The notes under the pieces are model-generated. The model saw nothing but the letters and a program-made list of their open reading frames with translations. It did no database searches and had not been told where the DNA came from. DNA of 45,781 bases from the NCBI GenBank assembly GCA_020247055.1, contig JADCJL010000143.1, positions 1 through 45,781 of the forward strand, given 5' to 3'. Position numbers and translations under genes: made by a program. Source of the stretch: Acidobacteriaceae bacterium (lineage in GTDB: Bacteria; Acidobacteriota; Terriglobia; Bryobacterales; Bryobacteraceae). Position 1 is the first letter of the stretch, and each line of letters starts with the position of its first letter. Shown in pieces: positions 38,630-44,573 of this stretch.

Positions 38630-39827
38630 GCTTACCTCGCCGTCGCGCTGGGTCCTCTGTGCCTTCCTGCTCGCCGGGACCACCATCAACTACCTCGACC
38701 GCCAAACCCTCAGCCTGCTCGCCCCCCTGATGCGCGACGAACTGCAGTTGAACAACGAAAAACTCGGCCTGCTCTTCTCCCTCTTCTATTACGCCTACAT
38801 GCTCGCGCAGTTCCTCGCCGGCGGTCTCATCGAACGTCGCAACCTCCGGTCGAGCTACGGCGGCGCCGTCCTCCTCTGGTCCCTGGTCGGCTTCGCCACC
38901 GCCTTCACCACCGGCTTTGCCAGCCTCGCCGTCTTCCGCATCCTCCTCGGCATCGCCGAATCGCCCAACTGGCCCGGCGCCCTCAAAATCGTCTCCCGCG
39001 CCCTCCCCGAACGCGAGCGGCCCCTCGGCAACGGTATCTTCACCAGCGGCCAAAGCGTCGGCGCCCTCCTCGCCCCCATTCTGATCCTGACCATCGCCCA
39101 GACCGCCGGCTGGCGCATGGGCTTCGCCGCCGTCGGCCTGCTCGGCGTCCTCTGGTTCGCCGCCTGGGTCTGGTTCACCCGCCGCCCGGAGTTCGCCCCC
39201 CTCTGGCCCCCGGGTCCCCCCGTCACCGTCGCGGCCAGCTACGGCGCCATCCTGCGCTCCAAACCCTTCTGGTGCGTCGCCGTCATCACCAGCACCGTCA
39301 ATCCCATCCTCTACTTCAACGTCAACTGGCTGCCGACTTACTTCCACCAGCAGCGCCAGATCGCCCCGGGCTCGGACGAAATGAAGTGGATCCTCACGGC
39401 CATCTTCCTCGCCCTCGACCTCGGCTATCTCGCCTGCGGTCTAGCCTGTCTCCGCCTGCCCCGCACCCTCGTCTTCACCGTCGCCACTGCCCTGGTCGCC
39501 TGCGCCGCCGCCGTCCCCGGCGCCCCGGACCGCACCGCGCTCATCGCCCTCCTCGCCGTCTCCAACTTCGGCCTCGGCATGTGGATGGCCCTCTACCTTA
39601 CTTTCACCCAGGAGATCTCCCGCCACTCCATCGCCACCGCCATGGGCCTGCTCGGCGGCACCGGCAGCCTCGCCGGCGCCATCGTCATGTGGCTCGTCGG
39701 CGTCACCACCGAACGCACCCACTCCTTCGATCTCCCCCTCTACGCCATCGCCGGAGCCGTCACCCTCACCTGGCTCGCCGGCCTCACCCTCCAACGCAGC
39801 CAATCCACCACCCGGAACCTCGCATGA
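38628..39827 (+). CDS. MFS transporter (sugar-acid/anion symporter type)
   Basis: This is a 399-residue major facilitator. It opens WVLCAFLLAGTTINYLDRQTLSLLAPLMRDEL, the signature of the hexuronate/anion:cation symporter branch (ExuT-like). Typical loops follow: AGGLIERRNLRSSYG, and FRILLGIAESPNWPGALKIVSRALPERERPLGNGIF between helices 4 and 5. About twelve helices are visible. Uptake of hexuronates or similar acids is the best guess from the branch, not proof. The ATG overlaps the divergent HAD start (CATG). Its stop overlaps the next gene by four bases (ATGA), so it is coupled to the cyanophycinase-like peptidase. Confidence 0.9.
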   Translation: MLTSPSRWVLCAFLLAGTTINYLDRQTLSLLAPLMRDELQLNNEKLGLLFSLFYYAYMLAQFLAGGLIERRNLRSSYGGAVLLWSLVGFATAFTTGFASLAVFRILLGIAESPNWPGALKIVSRALPERERPLGNGIFTSGQSVGALLAPILILTIAQTAGWRMGFAAVGLLGVLWFAAWVWFTRRPEFAPLWPPGPPVTVAASYGAILRSKPFWCVAVITSTVNPILYFNVNWLPTYFHQQRQIAPGSDEMKWILTAIFLALDLGYLACGLACLRLPRTLVFTVATALVACAAAVPGAPDRTALIALLAVSNFGLGMWMALYLTFTQEISRHSIATAMGLLGGTGSLAGAIVMWLVGVTTERTHSFDLPLYAIAGAVTLTWLAGLTLQRSQSTTRNLA

Positions 39828-40657
39828 AAACACCCCTCGCCGCCTTTCTTCTCGCCCCCTGCCTCCTCGCGCAAGACCCCTACACCTACTCCCGCGCCGG
39901 CGCCCCCAACGACGTCACCACCCCCACCTCCGGCGGCGCCGTCCTCATGGGCGGCAGCCGCGATGTCGCCGCTGCCTTCGCCTGGATGATCGATCGCAGC
40001 GGCCGCGGCGACTTCCTCGTCCTCCGCGCCGCCGGCACCGATGCCTACAACCCCTTCGTCCTCGAACAGGGCCCCGCCCACTCCGCCGCCACCCTCATCA
40101 TCCGCTCCCGCGCAGCCGCCAGCCATCCCTTCGTTCTTGAAAAGGTCCGCCACGCCGAAGCCATCTTCCTCGCCGGCGGCGACCAGTGGAACTACATCCG
40201 CCTCTGGAAAGACACCCCCCTCGCCCGCGCTATCCAGCAGCGCATCGACGCCGGCGTCCCCATCGGCGGCACCAGCGCCGGACTCGCCGTCCTCGGCCAG
40301 TACTACTTCTCCGCCGAGTTCGACACCATCACCTCCGCCGAGGCCGAAGCCAACCCCGCCAGCCCCAAAATCGCCCTCGGCCGCGACTTCCTCCGCGTCC
40401 CCCACCTCGAAGATCTCATCACCGACAGCCACTTCAGTGAGCGAAAGCGTCAGGGCCGCCTCGCCATCTTCCTCCGCCGCCTCGGCGGCGACCAGATCAC
40501 CGGCCTCGGTATCGACGAAAGAACCGCCGTGCTGCTTTCACCCGATGGCTCCGCCCGCGTCGTCGGTGCGGGCGGAGCGCACCTGTTCCGCAATGGGCAT
40601 CCGCCCCGGAGCTATCCCCCCGGGGCGGCCCTGTCACTTCGGAAACCGCGAGAATAG
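39824..40657 (+). CDS. Cyanophycinase-like peptidase (family S51), exported
   Basis: This is a 277-residue protein of the peptidase S51/cyanophycinase group with a class-I glutamine-amidotransferase-like fold. The signal peptide is MKTPLAAFLLAPCLLAQ. GGAVLMGGSRDVAAAF starts the domain, FLAGGDQWNYI precedes the nucleophile elbow, and GGTSAGLAVLG carries the catalytic serine S151. HFSERKRQGRLAIFL and GLGIDERTAVL are family motifs. Cyanophycinases release beta-Asp-Arg dipeptides, and many secreted homologues have unknown substrates. It is coupled to the MFS gene upstream. Its last 24 bases overlap the end of the convergent 62-residue gene. Confidence 0.9.
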   Translation: MKTPLAAFLLAPCLLAQDPYTYSRAGAPNDVTTPTSGGAVLMGGSRDVAAAFAWMIDRSGRGDFLVLRAAGTDAYNPFVLEQGPAHSAATLIIRSRAAASHPFVLEKVRHAEAIFLAGGDQWNYIRLWKDTPLARAIQQRIDAGVPIGGTSAGLAVLGQYYFSAEFDTITSAEAEANPASPKIALGRDFLRVPHLEDLITDSHFSERKRQGRLAIFLRRLGGDQITGLGIDERTAVLLSPDGSARVVGAGGAHLFRNGHPPRSYPPGAALSLRKPRE

Positions 40658-40822
40658 CCACTCAAACCGCTCCGTGGCCAACTGCGCGTACGTATCAAAG
40701 TTCGACCAGAGGACGTCGAAGCTGGAGACGAAATCGGACGCCTGTTGAATCAGCGCGTCAATTCCGCCCGAAAATTGGGAAAGAGAGGATAAAAAACTTT
40801 GCGATAGGGGAATCCAAGGCAT
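40634..40822 (-). CDS. Small aromatic-rich protein, 62 residues, sigma-54-driven
   Basis: This is an unrecognised small protein. Evidence that it is a real gene is strong for its size. The perfect Shine-Dalgarno sequence AAGGAGGT (40828-40835) lies five bases before the ATG, and a near-perfect sigma-54 promoter ends 26 bases upstream. The product starts MPWIPLSQSF and ends WLFSRFPK. It has eight Phe, three Trp and one Tyr in 62 residues, no Cys, a net charge near minus three, and spacing of hydrophobic residues compatible with amphipathic helices. It has no signal peptide or obvious membrane span. Its 3' end overlaps the convergent cyanophycinase-like gene by 24 bases. Possible roles (regulator, granule- or membrane-surface protein) are guesses only. 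Confidence 0.72.
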   Translation of the reverse strand: MPWIPLSQSFLSSLSQFSGGIDALIQQASDFVSSFDVLWSNFDTYAQLATERFEWLFSRFPK

Positions 40823-40827
40823 TGTGT

Positions 40828-40835
40828 ACCTCCTT
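40828..40835 (-). promoter_or_regulatory. Perfect Shine-Dalgarno sequence of the 62-residue gene
   Basis: AAGGAGGT lies five bases before the ATG at 40822. It is the strongest ribosome-binding site I find in the window, where most other starts have weak sites, none, or rely on overlap with the preceding gene. Confidence 0.8.
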
Positions 40836-40847
40836 AGGGCCTACTGC

Positions 40848-40863
40848 AGCAATTCTCGTGCCA
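40848..40863 (-). promoter_or_regulatory. Sigma-54 (-24/-12) promoter
   Basis: On the minus strand the sequence is TGGCACGAGAATTGCT, matching the sigma-54 consensus TGGCACG-N4-TTGCW at every defined position, with ten bases between the -24 GG and the -12 GC. Taking the last C (40849) as -12 puts the start of transcription near 40837, giving a leader of about 15 bases that contains the Shine-Dalgarno sequence of the 62-residue gene. Confidence 0.8.
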
Positions 40864-40956
40864 TCCCCAAAAACCCGCACTCCCCCCTCGGATCGCCCCC
40901 CAAGTTGTCCCTAATCAGGCAACCCTACTCTGGCACCCTGGACCATTTCCTCCAGC
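40864..40956 (-). other. Intergenic region upstream of the sigma-54 promoter
   Basis: These 93 bases between the LssY_C/barrel gene and the -24 element hold no gene. An imperfect inverted repeat, TTGCC-N7-GGACAA on the minus strand, is a possible activator site. Just after the upstream stop, CTGGA-N9-TCCAG could form a short hairpin, but no T-run follows, so I do not call a terminator. Confidence 0.3.
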
Positions 40957-43149
40957 CTAGAACGTAAACGCGAACCCCGCGCTCACCCGCTGCTGTATCA
41001 TCTTCCCGCGGGCCACCTGATCCGGCAGCACCTGCGGTTCGAGCGACTTCCGCAGCAGATCCGGCCGCGGACTGCACGTGTTCCGGTAATCGAACAGCAC
41101 CGTCCAGTGCGGACTCACCCGGTAGCGCACCCCGCCTCCAAACTGCAAACCCGTCTGAAAGATCCCGCCCCCCGCCAGCGGAGGCTCACTGCCAAACCCA
41201 TAGGCCGCCCGGAACATCCCCACATTGTTCAGACCAAACCGGAAGATCCCCCGCGCCTTCGTAAACGGCGCATGCGTCAGGTGCACCAACTGCAGCACCG
41301 GCCCCGCCGCCACGTAAGGCCGCCATCGGCTCTCCCGCGGCCGCAGATGCACCAGGCCGTTATAGCTGAACCGGCGCGTCAGGAAACCACTATCCTGCTC
41401 GGCCACACTCGACGGACCTTGTAACTCCATACGGTAGCTACCCCGCTGATAACCAAAGCCCAGTTCGTGCGAATACCAACGAAACTGATGCAACGTCACC
41501 CCGCCCCCCAGCGTAAACCCCGGCGATACCCGGTTGGCCGCCTGCAGCGTCAGGCTCTCCCCCGGGCGATGCGGCGAGGCAATCCGCATCCCTTCCGCCC
41601 CCACCGACGAGTTACTGAACACCATCATCCCCGCATGGAAACTCAACTCCACCAGCGGCGGCGTCCAATCCGCCCCCCGCGCCCCCATCTTGGGCTCCTT
41701 CACCACCGTGCCGATCAGCTTCGGACCCGGAACCGCCTGCATCGTCTGCGGGGACTTCCGGTAGTGGCGAACCGTCTGCGTCAGAATCGAAGCGCCCTGG
41801 TACCATAGGCTCCCCCGATAAATGTCGTTGCGAAACGTCAGCACCGTCTGCCGCGCTATTCGCTTCGCCCGGTTGCCCCGGTGCGGCCCCGGCGCCGGCC
41901 CTACCGCCTCATCAAACCGCTTGCCCGCCAAGCAATCATTGAACACCATCACGGCCGCCTCCCGGTCCGTAATCAGCGTCTGCCCCGTCGCGTTGAACAG
42001 ATCTTCCGGCAGCCACGGCCGCGGCGCCAACCCCACCGACTCAACGCACCCCGTAAACACGAGATCGTTCACCACCTTGCTCCGCTCCCGGTCAATCTGC
42101 TCGTCAATCAGATGCGTAAACAACTCCCGGCCCCGGGAAAAATTGATCGCCACATCCTGCGTCGCCGCCGCCGTAAATACCGGCCGGCCCAACCACCGCT
42201 CCCCCGTCGCGTACACCCGCAGATGGTGGCGCTTGGAAAACGTATTCAACGCCTTCGCCCAGTTCTGCACCGGCGGCGCCCCCTCGAGCAGCAGCAACGA
42301 CATCGGAGCCTCTTTATACTCCTGATTCTCCGCCATCGCCCGCAGCGTCCGGAACCGCGCGGCCGCCGTCAGCGCCTCCGGCGCCTGCCACCCCGCCGCC
42401 TGAAACGCCCGCTCAATTGCCGCCGCCTCTCCGGCCAGCACCAGATTCGTCACATCAGAATCGATCCACCGCTCAGCCGTGTGCGTCCGGTACGGCAACC
42501 GCCGCAACATCTCCTCCGGAACCGCCTCCGGCAGTCCCAGCAGCGGCGGCGGCAGCGGCGCCCACTCCACGGGTTCGAGCAACTCCACCAATAACTCCGT
42601 TCCCGCCTCAAGCCGGATCTCCGGCTCGGAGAATCGCAGCACCGACGCAAACGCCGCCGTCGAAAACACCAGCGCAATCGGGTCCACCGCCGCCAGCGAC
42701 GTCAGCAATCCCGCGGCCCGAAACCCCGGCGTATTCGTCGAACGGATCCCCCGCATCCGTCCCTCCCCGTCCACCCGCTCCCGCGCATTATCAATCGTCA
42801 CCACCCGCGCCTCAATCCGAACAGCCACCCCCGGCTCCCGCTCCAACTTCGTAAACCGTAGCGTCATCGACGCCGTCTCCCGCACAATACCCACCCCCAC
42901 CCGCCGCACCTCCGCCACCTCCCCCCACACCCGCGCCCCCGCCGCCACCCGGTCAAATCCATATACCCGGAACGGCGCAATCAACACACCCTGCACCCGG
43001 TCCCCTACCCGCGACGAGTACGAGTTCACCTCCTGTTGCAGCCGCACCTCCAGGCACCTGTCACAGGCCCGGTCCGCCCCGGCGCACATCCCCGGCCCGG
43101 CGAGCAAAACAACCAGCGGCGCGAAAGATTTGAACAAGGTAAACAGCAT
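40957..43149 (-). CDS. LssY_C-domain protein with C-terminal outer-membrane beta-barrel
   Basis: This is a 730-residue exported protein. The signal peptide covers about residues 1-24. A first beta-rich region to about 200 is followed by a segment opening AERWIDSDVTNLVLAGEAAAIERAFQAAGW, which matches the LssY C-terminal domain pattern. That domain runs to about residue 430 with VNDLVFTGCVESVGLAPRPWL. Residues about 500-730 show alternating amphipathic strands (SPGFTLGGGVTLHQFRWYSH, YVAAGPVLQLVHLTH, FGGGVRYRVSPHWTVLFDYR) and end GFAFTF with a terminal Phe, as expected of an outer-membrane barrel. It diverges from the FHA gene with 17 bases between starts and no Shine-Dalgarno sequence. The function is unknown. 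Confidence 0.82.
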   Translation of the reverse strand: MLFTLFKSFAPLVVLLAGPGMCAGADRACDRCLEVRLQQEVNSYSSRVGDRVQGVLIAPFRVYGFDRVAAGARVWGEVAEVRRVGVGIVRETASMTLRFTKLEREPGVAVRIEARVVTIDNARERVDGEGRMRGIRSTNTPGFRAAGLLTSLAAVDPIALVFSTAAFASVLRFSEPEIRLEAGTELLVELLEPVEWAPLPPPLLGLPEAVPEEMLRRLPYRTHTAERWIDSDVTNLVLAGEAAAIERAFQAAGWQAPEALTAAARFRTLRAMAENQEYKEAPMSLLLLEGAPPVQNWAKALNTFSKRHHLRVYATGERWLGRPVFTAAATQDVAINFSRGRELFTHLIDEQIDRERSKVVNDLVFTGCVESVGLAPRPWLPEDLFNATGQTLITDREAAVMVFNDCLAGKRFDEAVGPAPGPHRGNRAKRIARQTVLTFRNDIYRGSLWYQGASILTQTVRHYRKSPQTMQAVPGPKLIGTVVKEPKMGARGADWTPPLVELSFHAGMMVFSNSSVGAEGMRIASPHRPGESLTLQAANRVSPGFTLGGGVTLHQFRWYSHELGFGYQRGSYRMELQGPSSVAEQDSGFLTRRFSYNGLVHLRPRESRWRPYVAAGPVLQLVHLTHAPFTKARGIFRFGLNNVGMFRAAYGFGSEPPLAGGGIFQTGLQFGGGVRYRVSPHWTVLFDYRNTCSPRPDLLRKSLEPQVLPDQVARGKMIQQRVSAGFAFTF

Positions 43150-43166: not shown

Positions 43167-44573
43167 ATGAGTTCCGTGCCCATCCTCCGGGTCCACTCCG
43201 GCCCCGACCCGGCCAACGTGCAAACCTGGCGCTTCTCGTCCACGTTTCATATCGGCCGCGCCACCGAGTGCGAACTGCAAATTCCCGATAGCCACATCAG
43301 CCGCAAACACGCCCTCGTCTCCTTCCAACAGGGCCAGTGGTGGATCCAGGACCTCAACAGCGCCAACGGCATCCTCCTCAACGGCCAACGCGTCCCCGCC
43401 GCCCCCATCAACCCCAACCTCACCGTCCGACTCGGCCTCGAAGGCCCCTGGCTCTGGTTCGAAGTCGAACCACTCCCCGACCCCGCCCCCAGTCAAACGA
43501 TGGTCCTCCGCCAGTACACCGAAAAATACCTCGCCCCCGCCTCGAGCGACCAACCCGCCGGCCATCAGACCATGATGATCCGCACGGCCTTCGCCCACGC
43601 TCAGAAAAAACAGCGCTCCAAGTTCGCCCTCGCCCTCGGCGGCGTCGCCCTCGCCGCCCTCGCCATCGCCGGCTACGCGCTCTACCAGCACCGCCAACTC
43701 AGCGAACGCAAAGCCCTCGCCCAGGAACTCTTCTACCAGATGAAGGCCCTCGACGTCGACATCGCCAGCGTCCGCTCGGAAAACGTCGCCCGCTACCGCG
43801 CCCGCCGCCTCGAAATGGAAAAGAACTACGAAAAGTTCCTCACCACCCTCAAAGTCTACGACCCCAAAATGAGCGAACGCGAACGCCTCATCATGCGCGT
43901 CTCCCGCATCTTCGGCGAATGCGAACTCGACATGCCCCCCGGCTTCAAACAGGAGGTCGAAAACTACATCACCAAATGGCAAAGCTCCGGCCGCTACAAA
44001 GCCGCCGTCCAACGCGCCCGCGAAAACGGCTACACCCCCCGCATCACCAGCGAACTCTTGAGCCAGGGCCTCCCCCCCCAGTTCTTCTACCTCGCCATGC
44101 AGGAAAGTAACTTCGACCCCTACATCAGCGGACCCGAAACCTACATGGGCATCGCCAAAGGCATGTGGCAGTTCATCCCCGAAACCGGCGCCAAATACGG
44201 CCTCCAAATCGGCCCCCTCGCCGACCTCCGCCGCCCCGACACAAGCGACGACCGCCACAACTGGGAAAAAGCCACCGTCGCCGCCTCCCGCTATCTCAAA
44301 GACCTCTACTCCACCGACGCCCTCGCCAGCGGCCTCCTCGTCATGGCTTCTTACAACTGGGGCGAAGGCCGCGTCATCAAACGCATTAAAAGCCTCCCCG
44401 GCAACGCCCGCGAACGCAACTTCTGGCGCCTGCTCACCGAGTTCCGCGCCGACATCCCCGCCGAAACGTATGACTACGTCTTCCACATCGTCTCGGCCGC
44501 GGTCATCGGCGAAAACCCGCGCCTATTTGGCTTCGATTTCGATAACCCCCTCGCCCATCTCGAAAAACCCTGA
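43167..44573 (+). CDS. FHA domain-transmembrane-lytic transglycosylase fusion
   Basis: This is a 468-residue fusion. Residues about 5-100 are an FHA domain with the phosphothreonine-binding residues in place: GR 30-31, SRKH 45-48 and an Asn in LNSANG at 63-68. A basic stretch (KKQRSK 147-152) precedes a single membrane helix at about 153-173, so by the positive-inside rule the FHA part is cytoplasmic. Coiled-coil-like helices follow to about 245. Residues about 290-450 are an SLT-type lytic transglycosylase with catalytic E313 in QESNFDP, GMWQFIP 332-338 and ASYNWGEG 394-401. The periplasmic part should cleave murein to anhydromuropeptides. The stop overlaps the Fpg/Nei start (TGATG). The joining of cytoplasmic phosphopeptide recognition to a muralytic domain is unusual. 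Confidence 0.9.
   Translation: MSSVPILRVHSGPDPANVQTWRFSSTFHIGRATECELQIPDSHISRKHALVSFQQGQWWIQDLNSANGILLNGQRVPAAPINPNLTVRLGLEGPWLWFEVEPLPDPAPSQTMVLRQYTEKYLAPASSDQPAGHQTMMIRTAFAHAQKKQRSKFALALGGVALAALAIAGYALYQHRQLSERKALAQELFYQMKALDVDIASVRSENVARYRARRLEMEKNYEKFLTTLKVYDPKMSERERLIMRVSRIFGECELDMPPGFKQEVENYITKWQSSGRYKAAVQRARENGYTPRITSELLSQGLPPQFFYLAMQESNFDPYISGPETYMGIAKGMWQFIPETGAKYGLQIGPLADLRRPDTSDDRHNWEKATVAASRYLKDLYSTDALASGLLVMASYNWGEGRVIKRIKSLPGNARERNFWRLLTEFRADIPAETYDYVFHIVSAAVIGENPRLFGFDFDNPLAHLEKP

Follow-up and report, generated by a model that had tools for sequence, protein, structure and literature searches.

A predicted sigma-54 promoter with paired upstream palindromes ahead of an orphan small gene in a genus of Bryobacteraceae

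A near-perfect sigma-54 promoter sequence, with an exact 10-base GG-to-GC spacing, was noticed directly ahead of a small gene on the minus strand of a contig from an Acidobacteriaceae bacterium (GTDB family Bryobacteraceae; assembly GCA_020247055.1, contig JADCJL010000143.1). The whole stretch of 45,781 nucleotides that was analysed is referred to below as the window. The locus raises the question of whether such a match is likely to be a working promoter and, if so, what kind of gene would be placed under its control. In order to answer it, the sites, their conservation, the selection acting on the coding sequence, the helix periodicity of the product and the genomic complement of rpoN and activators were computed.

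Core promoter and its conservation in the genus

Direct reading of the minus strand at 40863-40848 gives TGGCACGAGAATTGCT, with GG at 40862-40861 and GC at 40850-40849 separated by 10 bases, exactly as described in the first-pass annotation. The sigma-54 (RpoN) consensus is given as TGGCACN5-7TTGCT in an excerpt of PMC12316311. The placement ahead of a small gene is equally borne out, as the ATG at 40822 opens an ORF of 62 codons, 25 nt after TTGCT and preceded by a Shine-Dalgarno sequence. Counting 12 bases from the -12 C would place +1 near 40837 and predicts a leader of about 15 nt. The features of the locus are collected in Table 1.

Table 1. Positions of the observed and predicted features of the small-gene locus in the window
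Feature	Position	Strand	Remarks
Peptidase S51 (cyanophycinase-like) gene, convergent	39824..40657	plus	start codon placed by eye; shares 24 nt with the small ORF at its 3' end
G+C-rich hairpin following the stop codon, where the transcript may end	40595..40631	minus	-30.1 kcal/mol, z -3.25
Small ORF, 62-aa orphan protein	40634..40822	minus	residues 21-61 suit one amphipathic helix; based on dN/dS, helical moment, no accepted family
Shine-Dalgarno sequence AAGGAGGT	40828..40835	minus	GGAGG in four relatives, GGAAGG in G016
Predicted transcription start (+1)	40837	minus	12 bases downstream of the -12 C
Sigma-54 core promoter (-24/-12), TGGCAC-N5-TTGCT	40848..40863	minus	exact consensus; GG-N10-GC in all five close relatives
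Proximal palindrome TGCCTGATTAGGGACA, putative activator (UAS) site	40906..40921	minus	2 mismatches; centre 50 bp upstream of TGG
Distal palindrome TGGAGGAAATGGTCCA, putative second activator site	40939..40954	minus	3 mismatches in the window
Upstream gene, LssY_C domain	40957..43149	minus	C-terminal part with a weak likeness to an outer-membrane beta-barrel (below the Pfam cut-off)

The pattern TGGCACN5TTGCT is matched once in the window, against a mean of 0.01 in 100 dinucleotide shuffles. When up to two mismatches to TGGCACN5TTGCW are allowed, 14 sites are found in the window for 17.0 expected and no excess is left. Across the window genome, TGGCAYN5TTGCW is matched 10 times (three of them as TGGCACN5TTGCT) versus 3 times in the backwards control, and the nine relatives of the genus sum to 98 matches versus 60 (10 versus 2 in G016, 9 versus 6 in G017 and 11 versus 11 in G011). 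Since relaxed matches are common in the control too, a strong match alone is no proof of a promoter. That the site is only one of the ten relaxed matches in the genome counts against the reading of the first-pass annotation. No sigma-70-like site was called near the small gene, in a scan of little power as shuffles also gave 0.0.

Conservation across relatives constitutes stronger evidence for the putative promoter than the strength of the match. The small protein was detected in 7 of the 257 genomes of the order, all seven belonging to the genus of the window, of which 19 genomes were examined for carriers. These comprise the genome of the window, five close relatives (G001, G009, G015, G016 and G017, with 73-74% protein identity) and the more diverged G006 (34%). 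Three wider homologue matches outside the genus (E 0.017-0.038), lying inside open frames of 242-624 codons, were dropped. GG-N10-GC is present in the window and at all six homologous loci, and the full TGGCAYN5TTGCW in the window and at four of the six, the exceptions being G009 (TGGCAG) and G006. The -24 box reads TGGCAT in G017, G016 and G015 and TGGCAC in G001, and in these four genomes as in G009 it is followed by N5-TTGCT. Ungapped comparison of the 15 pairs formed by six sequences yields 93% identity over the eleven box positions, 53% over the spacer and 38% over the 40 nt upstream, and the distance from TTGCT to ATG remains within 24-26 nt in all six (the window and the five close relatives). 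The -24/-12 bases are kept in the five close relatives that retain the small gene, so that the comparison proposed by the first-pass annotation comes out in favor of the promoter. Their loss in gene-keeping relatives, named there as evidence against the promoter, was seen in none of these five; the diverged G006 has TGGCCC-N5-TTGCT with GG-N10-GC intact, and in this genome the palindromes described below are absent and the upstream region is shortened while the ORF is still open.

A homologue of the LssY_C gene stands just upstream of the small gene in all seven carriers; in G006 the homologue seems to have lost part of its end and its reading frame there, or else the assembly is faulty. In G011 the upstream gene is directly followed by an apparent peptidase gene, the small gene being missing between the same neighbours (by eye). 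G004, G005 and G010 possess the upstream gene without a match to the small gene, and other sequence follows it. Divergently from the LssY_C gene, positions 43167-44570 of the window encode FHA and lytic transglycosylase (SLT) domains in one protein.

Paired palindromes and candidate activators

Two imperfect 16-bp palindromes, TGnCnGAwwTCnGnCA, are found upstream of the box in the window and the five close relatives, and are regarded here as putative activator (UAS) sites. Their spacing is 19 bp in the five relatives, where each copy carries 0-1 mismatches, and 33 bp in the window, where both copies are weaker. Measured from the first base of TGG, the palindrome centres lie at -68/-49 in G009, G016 and G001, -67/-48 in G017, -79/-60 in G015 and -83/-50 in the window, so that in four of the five close relatives the proximal distance to the -24 box varies by no more than 1 bp; the distal palindrome of G016 abuts a run of N. 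With respect to the predicted +1, the centres are located about 76 and 109 bp upstream in the window and about 74-109 bp upstream over all six promoters. An excerpt of PMC3844500 places enhancers 80-150 bp, or about 70-150 bp, ahead of the promoter; the proximal palindrome, at only 48-60 bp ahead of the -24 box, comes close to the lower limit of reported distances.

For each of the six promoters, none of 1000 shuffles held an equally good pair at spacings of 17-35, the motif having been derived from the same promoters that were later tested and N having been replaced by A in G016. Unguided scanning for inverted repeats placed one of the two elements at rank one in G009, G016, G017 and the window and at rank two in G015; in G001 neither element appeared among the top four. 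The symmetry of the palindromes is uneven among the promoters.

The occurrence of the pair elsewhere was examined in several sets of sequences. No pair with at most two mismatches in sum and a spacing of 18-20 or 29-34 was found in 755,792 bases of activator flanks. A prefiltered scan of the full set of loci analysed (1.12 million bases, redundant; spacings 18-20 only; window sequence excluded) returned such pairs only at the small-gene promoters of the five relatives. Exact sigma-54 sites with at least 110 bases upstream amounted in these loci to 76 distinct ones, including the full list of 62 from the window genome and its five relatives, and the pair is present at 4 of them, all ahead of this small gene; the window, with its weaker palindrome copies, and G009, with a promoter outside the exact pattern, are not among these four. 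Within the scanned loci and activator flanks, which are part of each genome, the putative enhancer is apparently private to the small gene. Lone palindrome matches were also considered as a possible regulon, and outnumbered those of the backwards control in each of the ten genomes (17 versus 4 in the window genome, among the matches listed). Several 16-mers turn up unchanged in more than one genome, a pattern suggestive of conserved coding sequence, and no regulon was therefore inferred.

Sigma-54 promoters require an enhancer-binding activator. The window genome encodes both components, so that the lack of rpoN which, by the first-pass annotation, would have told against the promoter was not seen: rpoN is represented by one match (PF04552, E 2e-56, 192 bits) and the activator AAA+ domain by 14 matches to PF00158 at E <= 7e-49, five weak matches (E 1e-7 to 7e-5) being left out of the count. 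Ten genomes of the genus contain 12-20 activator domains each. The 14 activators of the window genome were searched for by reciprocal best matches in nine genus genomes, a comparison that took in 128 of 143 activator domains, with 10 of 12 in G003 and 7 of 20 in G004. Absences in these two genomes are unsafe because their activator sets are incomplete. L099, missing from G009, and L106, missing from G001, were discarded as the activator of the small gene, and so were L109 and L110, missing from most or all of the nine genomes, which leaves ten candidates. L103 (receiver, AAA+ and Fis-type HTH) offers the best fit to the presence of the small gene; homologues about 60% identical to it occur in G004, G007 and G014, all without the small gene, in a search of genomes other than G016-G018. 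Among the ten candidates, L104 alone is absent from G006, the genome that lacks the palindromes. L103 and L104 may be considered as leads only.

Other sigma-54-type sites were observed in the course of this survey. At L098 (G000:C327), a kinase-like gene (by eye) accompanies a sigma-54 response regulator, and a divergent, apparently exported protein of 138 aa is encoded behind a sigma-54 site. The site beside this kinase/activator pair is kept in 7 of nine genomes, pointing to use of the sigma-54 consensus in the genus. Palindrome-like sites upstream of L098, also in 7 of nine genomes, fall within an open frame that all seven preserve (LPQFR or LPDFS) and were rejected as coding sequence. L018 (G000:C139:11115-11130) is an exact sigma-54-type site located 29 nt ahead of an Hsp20-family gene with a Shine-Dalgarno sequence, and its 16 bases are found unchanged in G016 at C78:47496. 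In several genomes of the genus another exact sigma-54-like site closely precedes a short ORF, as seen at L019 (G000:C170:16121-16136), L070, L076 and L081; at L019 the gene that follows looks DksA/TraR-like (by eye), and TATACT follows the site, so that a sigma-70 promoter may explain it.

The small protein and its transcript

Every one of the 15 pairs of the six sequences (G006 left out) has a dN/dS ratio in the range 0.18-0.45, from which it follows that the ORF encodes a protein under selection. Searches of Pfam gave no match for the window protein and no accepted match for the seven members, two families being approached, each by a single member, at best E values of 0.018 and 0.14. NCBIfam contained none for the three members searched, and no PDB match was accepted (best E 1.1). 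The hydrophobic moment of residues 21-61 peaks at 100 degrees in 6 of the seven members and at 102 degrees in the diverged seventh, and only 1 in 2000 shuffles of window residues 21-62 reached the observed moment. The hydrophobic face of the window protein is rich in Phe and includes a Trp alongside Leu and Ile, and the net charge ranges from -3 to -5 in the four members computed. From this periodicity, the last 41 residues or so appear suited to an amphipathic helix. The family is an orphan, limited to the genus among the genomes of the order searched, and is new together with its putative, apparently private enhancer.

The main stem of the hairpin that follows the stop codon is kept in all six sequences. 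Its DNA doubles as the final stretch of the S51 peptidase gene, read on the opposite strand, and this overlapping coding can explain the conservation. The hairpin has no T-run and the terminator scan made no call there; an Rfam search of 40500-41100 returned no family. Within the gene, positions 40701-40729 (minus strand, codons 32-41) hold an inverted repeat TTCGAC-N8-GTCGAA, one base of which is changed in G016. The degenerate constant-residue codons among 32-40 display no silent change in the six genomes while silent divergence is high elsewhere, and an intragenic RNA or DNA element may lie here.

Alternative explanations and proposed regulation

The sigma-54 match could be due to chance, in which case read-through from the LssY_C gene or a different promoter would supply the transcript of the small gene. 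Relaxed matches are not rare in these genomes, the LssY_C gene is on the same strand and ends 93 bp ahead of the -24 box, and the ORF of G006 stays open despite a damaged box. However, both boxes are kept while neighbouring bases diverge, the leader length, the Shine-Dalgarno position and the paired palindromes are kept as well, and the low-powered sigma-70 scan called no other promoter, which makes this explanation highly improbable. It is somewhat less far-fetched, though still unlikely, that the palindromes are what is left of a hairpin that once terminated the upstream gene. They do begin right after the LssY_C stop codon, the two elements can by our own reading partly pair with each other in G015 and G016, and neither stood out as an inverted repeat in G001; against this, the elements read as direct repeats and not as complements in G017 and G001, no T-run comes after them, and their distance to the -24 box is nearly fixed in four of the five relatives.

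The nature of the product was considered in the same manner. That a small regulatory RNA is the true product, with an incidental ORF or a dual function, has a very slim chance of being correct: the purifying range of dN/dS in every pair and the conserved Shine-Dalgarno sequence and start speak for translation, covariation is small (-0.86 of -68.47 kcal/mol, with change on both sides in 3 of 68 pairs), and Rfam is silent. An RNA would nevertheless suit a unit of about 240 nt with a strong terminal hairpin, the six degenerate constant-residue codons among 32-40 that lack silent change, and the recurring TTA/CTA leucine codons, seen without a codon-usage baseline. A much more serious contender, if still a doubtful one, is a soluble partner forming a coiled coil with another protein, since a long amphipathic stretch fits it as well and the mean moment is 0.36 at 102 degrees versus 0.39 at 100. 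The best angle of 100 degrees in nearly all members and the Phe-rich face with its Trp weigh in the other direction. Action on the surface of a membrane or lipid, or else through self-assembly, is the role that we favor, tentatively and with slightly less than even confidence.

We consider sigma-54 control of the small gene to be very probable. Sigma-54 RNA polymerase would wait in a closed complex at TGGCAC-N5-TTGCT, and the two palindromes, whose centres lie 50 and 83 bp ahead of the -24 box, would be occupied by dimers of one activator. Upon a signal, the activator would assemble and the complex would be opened, to give a short mRNA of one gene with a leader of about 15 nt and an end probably near the hairpin after codon 62. 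The product would be a small acidic protein folding residues 21-61 into one amphipathic helix, whose most likely role would be at a membrane or lipid surface or in self-assembly, within an envelope or stress response. The view that the gene is switched on by a specific signal, advanced in the first-pass annotation, is made more likely by the conserved paired palindromes.

As a regulatory element the promoter is of a known kind. It resembles canonical sigma-54 promoters in its exact consensus, its GG-N10-GC, its paired elements at about enhancer distance and the presence of rpoN and activators in the genome, and differs from them in that it appears to drive a single orphan small gene and that its start site is a predicted one. 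NorR-type promoters reportedly carry three enhancer sites, and the NorR motif is GTCA-TGAC. More than one putative activator site upstream of one sigma-54 promoter is a shared trait, but only two elements are present here and their sequence does not resemble the NorR motif. In the phage-shock (Psp) response, PspF and sigma-54 drive pspA. The likeness to Psp would be one of function, namely sigma-54 control of a gene for an amphipathic-helix protein; compared on the small protein alone, the locus differs in consisting of one 62-aa gene without an accepted Pfam match, hence without PspA, PspB or PspC homology. PspF is listed among the activators devoid of a sensory domain in an excerpt of PMC7175178. 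A bolder reading, which we hold to be rather unlikely, is a genus-specific, enhancer-controlled stress module with the 62-residue amphipathic-helix protein as its sole output, either as a minimal and independently evolved Psp counterpart or as a self-assembling or surface-active peptide made on demand.

In the open-licence literature, almost nothing on sigma-54 control in Acidobacteriota was present among the matches listed, and Bryobacteraceae was not found together with sigma-54. A query combining sigma-54, Acidobacteria and enhancer-binding protein retrieved only a review of other sigma factors, among the matches listed, and a sigma 54-dependent promoter, a small protein and an amphipathic helix were not found together. 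The word Acidobacter- is absent from the main text of the comparative sigma-54 studies checked. This sparse literature contrasts with the 12-20 activator domains per genome in this genus. The locus offers a compact test case, with one promoter, one putative enhancer pair, one gene and six close natural variants, to which G011 adds a natural contrast as the gene is missing there between the same neighbours. The orphan small protein would thereby gain a testable expression condition.
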